Source: Terriglobia bacterium
Lineage (GTDB): Bacteria; Acidobacteriota; Terriglobia; Terriglobales; Acidobacteriaceae
DNA length: 37,064 bases
Assembly (NCBI GenBank): GCA_020073105.1
Contig: JAIQFW010000012.1
Span: forward strand, 1-37,064
Direction: 5' to 3'
Shown here: in pieces, positions 10,800 to 26,723 of the stretch
How positions within the stretch are numbered: position 1 is the first letter of the stretch
How the letters are laid out: each line of letters begins with the position of its first letter
The notes under the pieces: model-generated
What the model was told of the DNA's origin: nothing
Database searches by the model: none
What the model saw: only the letters and a program-made list of their open reading frames with translations
Translations under genes and position numbers: made by a program

Positions 10800-10901
10800 C
10801 AGGCACCGGTGGCCCACTGCACACGCAAGAGCCCGTTACCGTTGCTTCCTTCCGGACCTGGCGGGGTTGGCGGGAAGACGTCGCGCGGGACCGATGCCTG
10901 A
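10800..10901 (-). ncRNA. ffs: Signal recognition particle RNA (4.5S type)
   Basis: On the minus strand the sequence contains the near-invariant domain IV core CAGGTCCGGAAGGAAGCA (+ strand 10842-10860 region), including the GGAA tetraloop. The ends pair: + strand 10801-10810 (AGGCACCGGT) is complementary to 10890-10899 (ACCGATGCCT) with one G-U pair, giving a hairpin of about 100 nt. This is the short bacterial SRP RNA that binds Ffh and docks with FtsY, whose gene lies at 23748 in this window. It has no Alu domain. A minus-strand TAGAAT at 10910-10915 is a suitable -10 box, placing the 5' end near 10902. Confidence 0.95.
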
Positions 10902-10933: not shown

Positions 10934-10954
10934 CTAGCTCCTAGCTGCTAGCTA
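10934..10954. repeat. Three heptanucleotide units upstream of ffs
   Basis: Three consecutive 7-bp units, CTAGCTC, CTAGCTG and CTAGCTA, vary only at the last base. On the minus strand they read as GCTAGNN heptads, similar in form to the GCYAANT arrays at 19273-19366 and 25971-26071. The array sits at the expected -35 position of the ffs promoter. Confidence 0.6.
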
Positions 10955-18023: not shown

Positions 18024-19268
18024 ATGAACGCCGAGATCATCGCCATCGGCTCGGAGATGCTGACCCCGTTTCGCCAGGACACCAATTCACTTTACCTGAC
18101 GGAAAAACTTAACCTGCTTGGGGTTGAAGTTATTTTCAAGACCATCGTGGGCGACAGCCTGGCACATCTTACCCAAGCCGCGTCACTGGCTCTTTCGCGC
18201 GCGGACATTGCGATCTTCATGGGAGGCCTTGGGCCAACCGAGGACGACCTCACCCGAGAAGCTGTGGCCGAGGCTTTGGGCCTCGAACTCCGCCGCGACC
18301 CCGAAGTCGTAGCCTGGCTCGAGCAGCGATTCGCCGCGCGTGGCTGGAAGATGGCGGCGAACAATTTGAAACAGGCCGACGTCATCACTGGAGGGGTGGT
18401 TCTACCCAATGCGAATGGTTCTGCTCCCGGCCAGTGGATCAGCGGCAAATATGAAGGGCGGGAGAAGATTGTGATCCTGCTTCCTGGTCCGCCGCACGAG
18501 TTGAAAGCGCTGTTTGAAGAGCACTGCGTCGAGCGTCTGCGGGCCAAGATACCGCTACAATTCATCGCGACCCGCGAATTGAAGATCACAGGAATCGGGG
18601 AATCGCACTGCGATGCCCGTGTCGCCCCAATCTACAAGCGCTTTACCGATGTGCAGACGACGATCCTCGCGGGGGCTGGAGAGATCCAACTTCATCTCAG
18701 AAGCCGTGCCGGTTCTCTCGATACCGCCCAGAAGAGAGTCGATGAACTCGTCGAGAAGATTGAAGAAGAGCTGGGTGATTTGGTCTTCTCCGACAATGGC
18801 GACTCCATGGAGCAGATCGTCGGCTACTATCTGCAAATGCGCAACGCTACACTGGCGGTGGCGGAGTCGTGCACCGGAGGCTTGATCGGCCAGCGAATCA
18901 CCTCGGTTAGCGGGAGTTCGCGATACTTTGTCGGCGGCGCAATCGTTTACTCCGACCAGCTCAAGACTGCACTGGCGGGCGTGTCCGCGGAGTTGATCAA
19001 GAAACATGGAGCGGTCAGTGGCGAGACGGCAGCCGCACTCGCAGAAGGCATTCGCAAACGTTGTGCTACTACCTTCGGTCTTGGGGTCACCGGCGTGGCC
19101 GGTCCGACTGGCGGAACGGCGGAGAAGCCGGTCGGTTTGGTGTTCCACGCTCTGGCCAGCGAGACGGGGACTGAAGTCGTCGAGCGTAGGTTCGCCGGAG
19201 ACCGCAAGCGTATCCGCTGGTTTGCCAGCCAGCAGGCGTTGGATATGGTGAGGAGGAGACTGTTGTAG
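18024..19268 (+). CDS. cinA: CinA: MoCF-like domain fused to nicotinamide-nucleotide amidase (PncC)
   Basis: A 414-residue two-domain CinA. The N-terminal domain (residues 1-170) is the molybdopterin-binding-like COG1058 domain, with MNAEIIAIGSEML, FMGGLGPTEDDLTREA and LLPGPPHELK; in characterised CinA it is an ADP-ribose or NMN-related pyrophosphatase. The C-terminal PncC domain (from about residue 255) has AESCTGGLIGQRITSVSGSS, the strand SYFVGG-type sequence YFVGGAIVYS, and GVTGVAGPTGGT. It deamidates nicotinamide mononucleotide to nicotinate mononucleotide in pyridine nucleotide salvage. Both domains look intact. The gene follows the TIG/NHL gene by 83 bases. Its stop is just before a heptad-repeat hairpin that leads into thpR. 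Confidence 0.95.
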   Translation: MNAEIIAIGSEMLTPFRQDTNSLYLTEKLNLLGVEVIFKTIVGDSLAHLTQAASLALSRADIAIFMGGLGPTEDDLTREAVAEALGLELRRDPEVVAWLEQRFAARGWKMAANNLKQADVITGGVVLPNANGSAPGQWISGKYEGREKIVILLPGPPHELKALFEEHCVERLRAKIPLQFIATRELKITGIGESHCDARVAPIYKRFTDVQTTILAGAGEIQLHLRSRAGSLDTAQKRVDELVEKIEEELGDLVFSDNGDSMEQIVGYYLQMRNATLAVAESCTGGLIGQRITSVSGSSRYFVGGAIVYSDQLKTALAGVSAELIKKHGAVSGETAAALAEGIRKRCATTFGLGVTGVAGPTGGTAEKPVGLVFHALASETGTEVVERRFAGDRKRIRWFASQQALDMVRRRLL

Positions 19269-19272
19269 GCCA

Positions 19273-19366
19273 GCACTTAGCAGTTAGCATTTGGCAATTG
19301 GCCGTCCAGTGCGGTGATCGTATCCACACTGGCGTGGGCTAAATGCCAATTGCTAAGTGCTAAATG
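19273..19366. repeat. Inverted pair of heptanucleotide arrays overlapping the thpR start
   Basis: The left arm, 19273-19302, read on the minus strand is GCCAATT, GCCAAAT, GCTAACT, GCTAAGT, GC. The right arm, 19338-19367 on the plus strand, is GCTAAAT, GCCAATT, GCTAAGT, GCTAAAT, GC. Units are exactly in 7-bp register and vary mostly at positions 3 and 6 (consensus GCYAANT). The 35-nt centre contains a further short inverted repeat (CCAGTG / CACTGG). The final plus-strand unit contains the ATG of thpR. A second element of the same type lies at 25971-26071. Confidence 0.85.
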
Positions 19367-19951
19367 CGGGTTTTTGTTGCTCTCGACATTGAGGACGCCA
19401 TTCGCGAGCGCATTCAGCGCTTTATGGAAGGAGTGCGCGGCTTCGCTCCGGACGCGCGCTGGGTGCGTCCCGAGTCGCTGCATGTTACCTTGAAATTCAT
19501 CGGAGAAAAGCCCGCCGATGCCGTGGAGAGAATCAAGAGCGCGCTGGCTGCAGCGAAGGCCGACCCGATACAACTCAACTTCCGTGGATATGGTTTCTTC
19601 CCTACTCCCAAGGCAGCTCGCGTCTTCTGGGTGGGCATCGAATCCGGGCCGCAGCTTGCGGGCCTCGCGGCAGCGGTTGACGAAACCACGTTCGCGCTCG
19701 GAATCCCGAAAGAGGATCATGCCTTCAGCCCGCATCTCACGCTGGCGCGTGGCGGCGGTCGCTCCGGCGCACCGGCATGGCGCAAGGGAGACGCGCCCAA
19801 GCGGAATTTTCAGATCCTGCAGGAGAAATTGGCAGCGATGCCGGCGCCTGAATTTGGTACGATGACGGCCCCGGAGTTTTTTCTGTATGAAAGCAAGCTC
19901 AGGCGGGGAGGTGCGGTGTACACAAAGATCGCGCGCTTCGCGCTGACGTAG
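19364..19951 (+). CDS. thpR: RNA 2',3'-cyclic phosphodiesterase (2'-5' RNA ligase family)
   Basis: A 195-residue 2H phosphoesterase. Both HxTx motifs are present: His40 in LHVTLKFIGE and His124 in FSPHLTLARG, about 84 residues apart as expected. Family members hydrolyse RNA 2',3'-cyclic phosphates and can ligate 2'-5' tRNA halves in vitro; the cellular role is unclear. The N-terminus MRVFVALDIE is canonical, so ATG 19364 is the start, although no Shine-Dalgarno is present. The ATG is made by the last unit of the heptad repeat (GCTAAATG) and the upstream bases are all repeat. It lies 95 bases after cinA and 13 bases before plsY. Confidence 0.93.
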   Translation: MRVFVALDIEDAIRERIQRFMEGVRGFAPDARWVRPESLHVTLKFIGEKPADAVERIKSALAAAKADPIQLNFRGYGFFPTPKAARVFWVGIESGPQLAGLAAAVDETTFALGIPKEDHAFSPHLTLARGGGRSGAPAWRKGDAPKRNFQILQEKLAAMPAPEFGTMTAPEFFLYESKLRRGGAVYTKIARFALT

Positions 19952-24704: not shown

Positions 24705-24707
24705 AGG

Positions 24708-24778
24708 CTCTGTGTCCTCTGTGTTCTCTGTGGTTAAAGAAAATGAAAATCACAGAGGAAATAGAGGTTCGCAGAGAA
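24708..24778. repeat. Short-period dispersed repeat with inverted arms between ftsY and ribD
   Basis: The left arm consists of three in-register 9-bp units, CTCTGTGTC, CTCTGTGTT and CTCTGTGGT (24708-24734). The right arm, 24748-24778, holds related sequence in inverted orientation (ATCACAGAGGAAATAGAGG, then CGCAGAGAA), and CCTCTGTG can pair with CACAGAGG. From memory, sequences of this form recur between genes in many environmental bacteria and give NHREHRGH-like peptides when translated; that reading is present here on the minus strand. No transposase or target duplication is visible. Confidence 0.7.
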
Positions 24779-24811
24779 TGTCGCCTGCCATCATAGTGAA
24801 GATTTACGCCT

Positions 24812-25978
24812 ATGTCCGACGCCGAAAATGACCGCCTTGTTCTTCGCCGCGCACTCGACCTGGCGCGACAGGGCGTTGGCCTGACTTCCCCCAACCCCTG
24901 CGTGGGCGCAATTCTGGTGGACGCTAGCGGAGCGGTAGTCGGGAGCGGCAGCTACACCTACGATGGCATCAAGCACGCCGAAGTGCTCGCACTTGAGCAG
25001 GCCGGAGAAAAGGCTCGGGGATCAACTCTCTACATCAACCTCGAACCATGCTCCCACCAGGGCCGCACGCCACCCTGCGTTGATTCCGTAATTGCAGCTG
25101 GAATCCGCCGCGTTGTTGCCTGCATGCAGGACCCGAATCCCCAGGTGAGGGGCCAGGGATTCGCCAAGCTCCGGGATGCGGGCATCGAAGTCTCCCTGGG
25201 GGTCCTCGAGGAAGAAGCCAAAGCGCTCAATGAGTCTTTCGCGAAATACATCCGGCACGGCGCTCCCCTGGTCACACTGAAGGCAGCGATGACCCTGGAC
25301 GGAAAGATCGCGCCGCCCCCTAGCGAATCGCACAATCCGACGGCACTCGGCGCTGGAGGCGCAACTGCGGGCTGGATCACCAGTGAAGCCGCCCGCGCCC
25401 ACGTGCACGAGCTCCGTCACCAGCATGATGCAATTCTGGTAGGTGTGGGAACGGTCATCGCTGATGACCCGCTGCTCACCGACCGCAGCGGCCGCCCCCG
25501 CCGGCGGCCTCTGCTAAGGGTCATCCTTGACTCGCGTCTGCGCTTGCCCCTCGAGTCCCGTGTGGTCACAACTGCAAAGGACGATTTGCTCTTGCTGTGC
25601 TCTTTCGCCGAGGAGAAAAAGAGGAAACAGTTGCTGCAGCGCGGCGTTCGAATCGAGCAGATCCCCCGTCCTACGCCGGAGGGACACCCCGACCTTGCAG
25701 CCGTCGCTCACCATCTTGGCAAAATGGAAATCGCGAGCCTGATGATCGAGGGTGGTGCTATGGTGAACTGGGCGGCGCTCTCTTCCGGCATCGTTGACAA
25801 AGTATTCTTGTACTACGCCCCGAAGATTCTCGCGGGAACAGGTTCCGTCCCGTTTGCGGCCGGGACTGGATTCCACCGCATGAGCGATGCAGCCCAAGTG
25901 AAGTCCATCCGCCTGCACCGCTTTGGAGAGGATTTCGCGGTGGAGGGGTATCTGAAGGACCCGTATGCGGGCACTTAG
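24812..25978 (+). CDS. ribD: Bifunctional riboflavin deaminase/reductase RibD
   Basis: RibD carries out the deamination and reduction steps that follow GTP cyclohydrolase II in riboflavin synthesis. Residues 1-150 are the zinc deaminase: His55-Ala-Glu57 (KHAEVLA) and Cys80/Cys89 (EPCSHQGRTPPC). The C-terminal reductase follows from about 155, with LKAAMTLDGKIA, WITSEAARAHVHELRHQHDAILVGVGTV, DDPLLT, VILDSRLRLP and IEGGAMVNWAAL. Length (388 residues) is normal. The stop TAG and the two codons before it lie in the first bases of a heptad-repeat element (GGCACTTAG), so the last residues are encoded by repeat sequence. ribE follows 100 bases later, the gap being filled by that repeat. Confidence 0.96.
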   Translation: MSDAENDRLVLRRALDLARQGVGLTSPNPCVGAILVDASGAVVGSGSYTYDGIKHAEVLALEQAGEKARGSTLYINLEPCSHQGRTPPCVDSVIAAGIRRVVACMQDPNPQVRGQGFAKLRDAGIEVSLGVLEEEAKALNESFAKYIRHGAPLVTLKAAMTLDGKIAPPPSESHNPTALGAGGATAGWITSEAARAHVHELRHQHDAILVGVGTVIADDPLLTDRSGRPRRRPLLRVILDSRLRLPLESRVVTTAKDDLLLLCSFAEEKKRKQLLQRGVRIEQIPRPTPEGHPDLAAVAHHLGKMEIASLMIEGGAMVNWAALSSGIVDKVFLYYAPKILAGTGSVPFAAGTGFHRMSDAAQVKSIRLHRFGEDFAVEGYLKDPYAGT

Positions 25979-26071
25979 CAATTGGCATTTGGCCGAGCGA
26001 GTTCCGTGGTCGTTCGACCCGCACATGGGGCTAAGGGCCAAATGCTAAGTGCTAAATGCTAACTGCTGAGG
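25971..26071. repeat. Inverted heptanucleotide arrays spanning ribD stop to ribE Shine-Dalgarno
   Basis: The right arm has six plus-strand heptads in exact register from 26030 to 26071: GCTAAGG, GCCAAAT, GCTAAGT, GCTAAAT, GCTAACT, GCTGAGG. The left arm, 25971-25993, reads on the minus strand GCCAAAT, GCCAATT, GCTAAGT, GC. The centre (25994-26029) is unrelated to the centre of the copy at 19303-19337. The left arm includes the ribD TAG (25976-25978); the last right-arm unit provides GAGG at 26068-26071, seven bases before the ribE ATG. Confidence 0.87.
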
Positions 26072-26078
26072 TTTTCCT

Positions 26079-26723
26079 ATGTTCACCGGCATCATTGAAG
26101 AAGTTGGACAGGTTACTCGCATCGCACAAGGCAACGGCACCCGCCATCTGACCGTATCGTCCACCGAACTGGTCAAAGAACTCAAGCAAGGGGCCAGCAT
26201 TGCGGTGAGTGGCGTCTGCTTGACAGCCGTTGACATCACCTCCCAGTCGGTGGGCTTCGATCTGGCCGAGGAGACCTGGAACGTCACTTCGTTCTCGCGC
26301 ATCAAGGAGGGTGCGCTGGTGAATCTCGAACTTCCCATACGTGCCGATGGACGATTCGGCGGCCACATCGTGCAAGGCCATGTCGACGGTACGGGCAAGT
26401 TTCTCTCCCTCGATCCCATCCCCGGCGCTGATGACTATTGGTTGCACATCGAAATTCCGCCCGAACTCACCCGTTATGTCATCTTCAAAGGATCGCTATC
26501 GATCGAAGGTATCAGTTTGACAGTAGCGAAGATCGAAGGCACGGCAGTCACAGTCGCGATTATTCCTCACACGGTTCTCATGACCAATCTCAAGTCGCTC
26601 AAGCGCGGCGACCCGGTGAACCTCGAAGTGGATATGATCGCAAAGTACGTGGAGAAGATGATGCATGGCGACTCAGCCAATAGCTCGATTACGCTGGAGA
26701 GACTGGTAAACCAAGGGTTCTAG
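26079..26723 (+). CDS. ribE: Riboflavin synthase alpha chain
   Basis: Riboflavin synthase dismutates two molecules of 6,7-dimethyl-8-ribityllumazine to riboflavin and the pyrimidine precursor. The 214-residue protein has the two tandem lumazine-binding domains. Domain 1 contains MFTGIIEEVGQV, ISGVCLT-like SIAVSGVCLTAVDI, GALVNLELPI and GGHIVQGHVDGTG. Domain 2 contains YVIFKGSLSIEGISLTVA, IIPHTVLMTNLKSLKRGDPVNLEVDMIAKYVEKM. The start ATG has GAGG seven bases upstream, inside the heptad repeat. No FMN riboswitch is seen before ribD or ribE. It is followed by a perfect 28-bp palindrome before a convergent gene. Confidence 0.96.
   Translation: MFTGIIEEVGQVTRIAQGNGTRHLTVSSTELVKELKQGASIAVSGVCLTAVDITSQSVGFDLAEETWNVTSFSRIKEGALVNLELPIRADGRFGGHIVQGHVDGTGKFLSLDPIPGADDYWLHIEIPPELTRYVIFKGSLSIEGISLTVAKIEGTAVTVAIIPHTVLMTNLKSLKRGDPVNLEVDMIAKYVEKMMHGDSANSSITLERLVNQGF

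Follow-up and report, generated by a model that had tools for sequence, protein, structure and literature searches.

The window analysed here (the whole 37,064-nt stretch of contig JAIQFW010000012.1, from a Terriglobia bacterium of the Acidobacteriaceae) carries an element made of two opposed arrays of GCYAANT-type heptads in the gap between cinA and thpR (Table 1). The pattern GCYAANNGCYAA matched the window 12 times against 0.26 expected, and the largest number found in any of 100 shuffles was two. The best ungapped arms of the element were 24 nt long, 88% complementary, and 42 nt apart. Three descriptions given in an earlier note on this DNA held up, namely the opposed arrays before thpR, the thpR ATG lying inside the last right-arm unit plus the next base (a G, giving GCTAAATG), and the lack of a Shine-Dalgarno sequence, the core of which was absent from positions -17 to -4. 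The statement that the leader is entirely repeat did not hold because the centre is unique DNA; repeat makes up 57 of the 95 intergenic bases (31 in the left arm and 26 in the right arm before the ATG). Variation does fall at two heptad positions, as noted earlier, these being corrected to positions 6 and 3, with T at position 7 in this class.

Table 1. Features of the two heptad elements and their flanking genes (window coordinates).
Feature	Position	Strand	Basis and remarks
cinA, upstream gene	18024..19268	+	Pfam CinA, MoCF_biosynth, CinA_KH; stop TAG 19266-19268
Left arm, AGC + four heptads (ACTTAGC AGTTAGC ATTTGGC AATTGGC), reverse complement of GCYAANT	19272..19302	-	Sequence
Centre, 35 nt, unlike other copies' centres; holds small CCAGTG/CACTGG stem	19303..19337		Sequence, fold
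Right arm, GCTAAAT GCCAATT GCTAAGT GCTAAAT GC, overlaps first bases of thpR	19338..19367	+	Sequence
thpR, LigT / 2'-5' RNA ligase-like phosphoesterase	19364..19951	+	Pfam LigT_PEase; relatives align from residue 1, ATG conserved
ribD	24812..25978	+	Pfam RibD_C, dCMP_cyt_deam_1; TAG stop 25976-25978 inside first heptad (CTTAGC) of second element
Second element, left arm	25971..25994	-	Sequence
Second element, centre	25995..26029		Sequence
Second element, right arm, GCTAAGG GCCAAAT GCTAAGT GCTAAAT GCTAACT GCTGA	26030..26069	+	Sequence
ribE, riboflavin synthase	26079..26723	+	Pfam Lum_binding, two stretches

The earlier account of the window captured the cinA-thpR element and missed a second one, between ribD and ribE (25971-26069). 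The first heptad of this second element contains the ribD TAG, and the repeat (25971-25978) therefore encodes the last RibD residues. A further intergenic inverted repeat, with a period of about 9 nt (CCTCTGTGT...), lies between two co-directional genes at 24705-24811. On the minus strand at 10800-10897 the window encodes a bacterial small SRP RNA (Rfam RF00169, 66.6 bits), which is adjoined by a short CTAGCTC tandem at 10934; this RNA was the sole Rfam match above gathering score in the window, with none at the element.

The array is not local to the cinA-thpR gap but represents a dispersed repeat class. Scanning of the source genome (5.14 Mb in 308 contigs) yielded 58 overlapping triple-unit matches versus 3 for the reversed pattern. 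Among the 26 own-genome clusters at the loci examined, 16 held both orientations, with the minus-strand arm first in all 16, and 10 held a single orientation. The earlier note had tied its functional reading to the array occurring elsewhere in the genome and in relatives, and it does both: of the 398 family genomes scanned, 229 had at least one match. Relatives that bear names are metagenome-assembled genomes (MAGs) of Acidobacteriota, for example of Candidatus Sulfotelmatobacter and Acidobacteriaceae. Reversed-pattern matches in the family genomes were usually few, although they outnumbered the forward ones in some (e.g., G132). Matches extended to 36 of 199 genomes in a phylum-wide scan and to 6 of 35 genomes reached via distant CinA matches, one of the latter being a Chloroflexi MAG with several inverted pairs. 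The copies have REP-type traits, being dispersed, palindromic, numerous, and mostly intergenic (intragenic copies were left out of the count). The highest number in these searches, 414 triple-unit matches versus 31 reversed, came from a genome of another family in the phylum scan.

GCYAANT is one of many heptad words. A unit-agnostic search of 200 kb of one relative (G018) covered 146 intergenic segments and located arrays of period 7 in 27 of them, compared to 15 for period 8, 16 for period 14, and at most 7 for each of the other periods from 4 to 13. The words include TTAGCAN, GTTGCCN, GTTCTCA, GTTTCNN, CAGCANT, and CAACGAC, among others. Lenient clustering of the 35 heptad stems from the own-genome stretches gave 11 clusters, and 17 of the 35 were TTAGCAN-like. 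Intergenic DNA displayed an excess of self-matches at lags 7 and 14 in the own loci (which were chosen by matches, so that the value is inflated) and in G018, along with a weak lag-7 signal in the window alone; no such excess was detected in coding DNA, in 35 loci of other phyla, or in a 200-kb stretch of G069. Of the stems themselves, 35/91 in the own genome, 51/170 in G018 (41 at lag 8), and 25/50 in the cinA-thpR set passed at lag 7, the signal was weak in G166, and the same threshold was passed by 7/60 control-phyla stems. No clear lag-7 excess of stems emerged in G069, G080, G004, G025, and the smaller g7 stretches. Because the lag-7 excess is clear in some genomes and not in others, heptad density varies widely between relatives. 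Most stretches used for these and the following counts were picked since their contigs carried matches, and others for thpR, so the densities are not genome averages; genes in them were called as hexamer-scored open reading frames. Period-8 inverted arrays (CATTTTGC-like) stand beside heptads at two G018 loci (L155 and L159).

The position of the ATG within the last unit had led to the proposal that the array creates the thpR start codon. From 111 loci we removed those with no adjacent cinA, no thpR start, or identical first thpR bases, and compared the remaining 87 distinct junctions of cinA and thpR, among them that of the window. The start codon was ATG in 86 junctions and GTG in one, and in 20 junctions of the set the gap did not exceed 25 nt and the scan detected no array, so the proposal is not sustained. 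A heptad stem was present at 34 of the 87 junctions. Shine-Dalgarno cores were rare both with (1/34) and without (4/53) such a stem, compared to 37% of called ATG genes in the own stretches and 10% after shuffling; the missing Shine-Dalgarno sequence thus belongs to thpR rather than to the array. The gap comparison among relatives, through which the earlier note expected the idea to be checked, did not bear it out: array-free relatives begin thpR at the same place, and hence the array does not make the start signal. The right arm perhaps adjoins thpR since the native ATGC fits the heptad sequence AAATGC.

Placement relative to flanking genes bears on the same question. In the stretches examined, heptad stems were present in 90 of the 921 gaps between co-directional genes, in 23 of the 222 convergent gaps, and in 8 of the 287 divergent ones (Fisher p 2.7e-5). 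Convergent gaps, which contain no start codon, thus had them as often as co-directional gaps, and divergent gaps had them rarely. The contexts ranked alike in the own genome plus G018 (65/430, 15/90, and 6/112) and in the remaining genomes (25/491, 8/132, and 2/175). Co-directional heptad stems lay a median of 7 nt from the stop codon versus 30.5 nt from the start codon, the stop side being the shorter in 65 of 90, and 10 of the 90 ended within 2 nt of a called start. Non-heptad stems also leaned to the stop side, less closely (medians of 33 and 65 nt). The heptad element is a 3'-flank element, not a 5' leader element. An array that supplies the thpR start and drives initiation without a Shine-Dalgarno sequence, as proposed for the Beggiatoaceae TAACTGA repeats, would fit the ATG in the last unit here, the ATG directly after the array at two related loci (L052 and L083), and the missing Shine-Dalgarno sequence. 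This reading is largely refuted and most improbable, given the stop-side bias, the stems in convergent gaps, and the ATG that is kept without an array, and neither a start-codon element nor the claimed dependence of initiation on the array was retained. The repeat class is real, but it is ordinary at the thpR start codon, and the case warns against inferring a translation signal where a repeat and a start codon touch.

The cinA-thpR element folds strongly, with an RNA folding energy of -62.1 kcal/mol versus -42.3 kcal/mol for shuffles (z -5.0) and a DNA fold at z -6.75; blocks of 6 bp predominate in the folded stem, each set apart from the next by a 1x1 mismatch where the heptad is variable. 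Regular 7-bp spacing of mismatches was considered as a general signature and set aside, being slight only. Folds of this strength, the stop-codon proximity, and the rarity in divergent gaps would all be expected of RNA hairpins acting after transcription, with roles in protecting mRNA 3' ends, in processing, or in attenuation between genes that are transcribed together. We regard this explanation as rather unlikely. A significant excess of G-U over A-C pairs on the sense strand was not found in 115 co-directional heptad stems (132 vs 114, expected share 0.51, p 0.22), while 45 control-phyla stems had 30 G-U versus 15 A-C pairs (p 0.043); a smaller early set had suggested an RNA-selected hairpin (112 vs 79), and the larger set did not sustain the excess. 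The variable base displayed no in-register covariation, either in 31 elements, which equalled unit-order shuffles, or in 19 elements compared at seven shifts. A T-tract (at least 5 T in the next 8 nt) followed 0 of 74 co-directional heptad stems versus 6 of 44 control stems and was absent at the cinA-thpR element itself, which is unlike an intrinsic terminator.

Comparison of the cinA-thpR gap across relatives (examples drawn from the best 30 of 71 and the best 30 of 47 matches) revealed different words at one site. Among these best matches, the word was TTAGCAN in the own genome, L052, and L083; GTACCGA in L053 and L058; GTCGTCA in L062 and L064; AGCTCTT in L072; and GATTGCA in L076. In one genus (g80) the gap was 4 nt in 7 of 9 species, the exceptions being G248, with a lone left arm (47 nt), and G236, with a 124-nt heptad element; the thpR starts of these two were 62 to 77% identical to those of the other seven species. 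On an unrooted tree, the simplest account is a gain of heptad sequence in the g80 gap. No target-site duplication was seen by eye, in a comparison limited by an empty gap that, at 4 nt and diverged, is too short for alignment. In a second genus (g29) the gap was 3 to 18 nt in seven species and held other inverted-repeat elements in several more. The gap in g29 loci L322, L330, L332, and L343 carries other inverted-repeat families (GTGTGGAGACGGGGC..., TCATCTTGAGCGAAGC...), for which reason it looks like a general landing site.

Arrays upstream of cinA offered a view of closely related g80 species (81 to 85% third-position identity), in which the units were shared and position 6 differed; the L314 array had two units more than those of L315 and L316. 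The L313 array upstream of cinA is apparently part hexameric (CAGTTG repeated), perhaps through a period change in place. For L311 and L316, the cinA genes are 93% identical at third positions, yet the DNA upstream of the heptad array could not be aligned, and a rearrangement may have its breakpoint at this array. The suggestion in the earlier note of slipped-strand tandem growth stands insofar as close species differ by whole 7-nt units; slippage alone is insufficient because the same core word is found at many loci whose centres are unrelated, often in inverted pairs. Plain microsatellite slippage confined to each locus, with no spread between loci, would produce such 7-nt length steps as well as the one-sided TTTTAGC run of L195, but is very unlikely in view of the 17 TTAGCAN-like stems in one lenient own-genome cluster, their unrelated centres, and the occurrence of the word in many genera. 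The L195 run (genome G361) has about eight units resembling TTTTAGC; it lies within older arms of the GAGC type and keeps phase with the right one.

Within elements, the arm classes defined by position 7 agreed in 31 of 36 cases versus about 18.6 predicted from the margins, and the variable bases of the two arms did not match in register beyond the level seen between other elements. Centres were tested for homology with 8 to 10 edge bases trimmed, and 2 to 3 of the 91 pairs among 14 centres reached the 99% level of the null, where about 1 to 2 are expected; a weak early signal of a conserved centre vanished once the arm-like edges were trimmed. In the own genome, L052, and L083, the arm cores and the right boundary agreed and the centres were unrelated. 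The arms are thus either kept by selection, which would give the same pattern, or renewed by a copying process, and we favour copying because the words differ at one site. Avoidance of identical neighbouring GCYAANT units appeared strongly in a first set (7/78 vs 20 expected), as one of about twelve comparisons, and was not upheld: it was absent in 53 pairs from other genomes (17 same versus about 19 expected) and is for this reason at most lineage-specific.

Agreement of core and right boundary around diverged centres would also be expected if the arms were binding sites of a heptad-reading DNA- or RNA-binding protein, such as a nucleoid protein or global regulator, with the core selected and position 6 free; paired tandem sites in Geobacter metallireducens have been proposed as global-regulator sites, according to the excerpted text of PMC2700814. 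We consider such a protein unlikely, as many words with the same architecture in one genome are hard to assign to one reader, and the same site bears different words in different species. The element probably belongs to a REP-like class of non-coding repeats dispersed between genes, with inverted degenerate heptad arms and a unique centre, placed just after the upstream stop codon. Elements of this class would settle at 3' flanks, where they are least harmful, and their arms would be remodelled unit by unit through slippage. The two arms may be kept alike by hairpin-templated copying at the DNA level, a process that would be strand-symmetric and not register-exact. Points against this REP-like reading are the lack of a linked transposase, the non-homologous centres (fresh copies would share theirs), the 10 of 26 clusters with a single orientation, and the lack of a clear lag 7 in some genomes. 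None of nine genomic loci for Y1 transposases (2.5 to 3.4 kb each) carried GCYAA arrays; one of these loci (L303) had two weak runs of other heptads.

REPINs consist of inverted arms with a variable spacer, and the heptad element is alike in this respect. It also resembles REP, BIME, and REPIN sequences as short palindromic intergenic repeats, as these are outlined in the excerpt of PMC3733652, but differs from REP and REPIN sequences in having no Y1 transposase gene beside the GCYAA arrays. The element is filed under paired inverted short tandem repeats of the Geobacter and Xanthomonas kind, not as a REP or REPIN because no Y1 transposase is linked and not as a MITE because the interiors are not homologous; it comprises intergenic inverted pairs of tandem units at variable distance and at several loci, with both arms in 16 of the 26 own-genome clusters.

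The sites of G. metallireducens (Gmet_I classes 1-3), as far as they are described in the excerpt of PMC2700814, are mostly opposite-strand pairs at variable distance, each with 3 to 5 tandem octa- or heptanucleotides (GTTGCTYN, TCTCCGTSY, MTYCTGA) and with several families in one genome. The Acidobacteriota elements share the opposed tandem short units and the several word families per genome; set against these descriptions only, they differ in words and phylum, and the Geobacter sites are predicted regulator sites, with class 1 at a fixed distance from ISGme8/9 (PMC2700814, in part). The heptamers GGGAATC and GGGGAYT of Xanthomonas and Nostoc are described in the excerpt of PMC4692102 as dispersed, mostly intergenic, and degenerate at fixed positions; they lie nearer the open reading frame on their 5' side, are rare between divergent genes, and form 70 (Xcc) and 75 (Xac) convergent inverted pairs. 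The excerpt also states that heptameric repeats occur in cyanobacteria, in agreement with the parallel drawn in the earlier note, and that heptamers are in excess between bacterial genes, with no settled explanation. The elements examined here are like these repeats in being dispersed, mostly intergenic, degenerate heptads that lie nearer the 5' gene, are rare between divergent genes, and include inverted pairs; unlike the Xanthomonas and Nostoc repeats, which in that account are G-rich and quadruplex-forming with one word studied per genome, they use GCYAANN plus many other words and are not G-rich. The Beggiatoaceae TAACTGA repeats, according to the excerpt of PMC4679880, are direct heptad repeats ending about 1 nt upstream of start codons that lack a Shine-Dalgarno sequence; unlike these direct, start-oriented repeats, many of the present ones are inverted, and they lie closer to the stop codon with no specificity for starts. 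Among the literature matches listed, none reported such elements in Acidobacteriota, nor did the excerpted portion of PMC4060949.

With many words, one architecture, and both occupied and empty states of one gap, these genomes offer a natural experiment in which the origin of inverted heptads is directly testable. A bolder proposal, to which we assign a low probability, is that an unrecognised cellular process writes inverted heptad pairs beside stop codons in Acidobacteriota, such that the word at one gap varies by species, is common to both arms, and leaves the architecture unchanged. If true, this would need copying machinery that steps by seven (a hairpin-templated polymerase or an unknown transposase), which is perhaps also behind the Geobacter and Xanthomonas pairs. 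As a separate observation, the 5' arm of heptad stems was T-rich and the 3' arm A-rich, with T versus A counts of 49:11 for GCYAA stems and 44:25 for other words, and non-heptad stems had no such 5'-arm bias (68:68).
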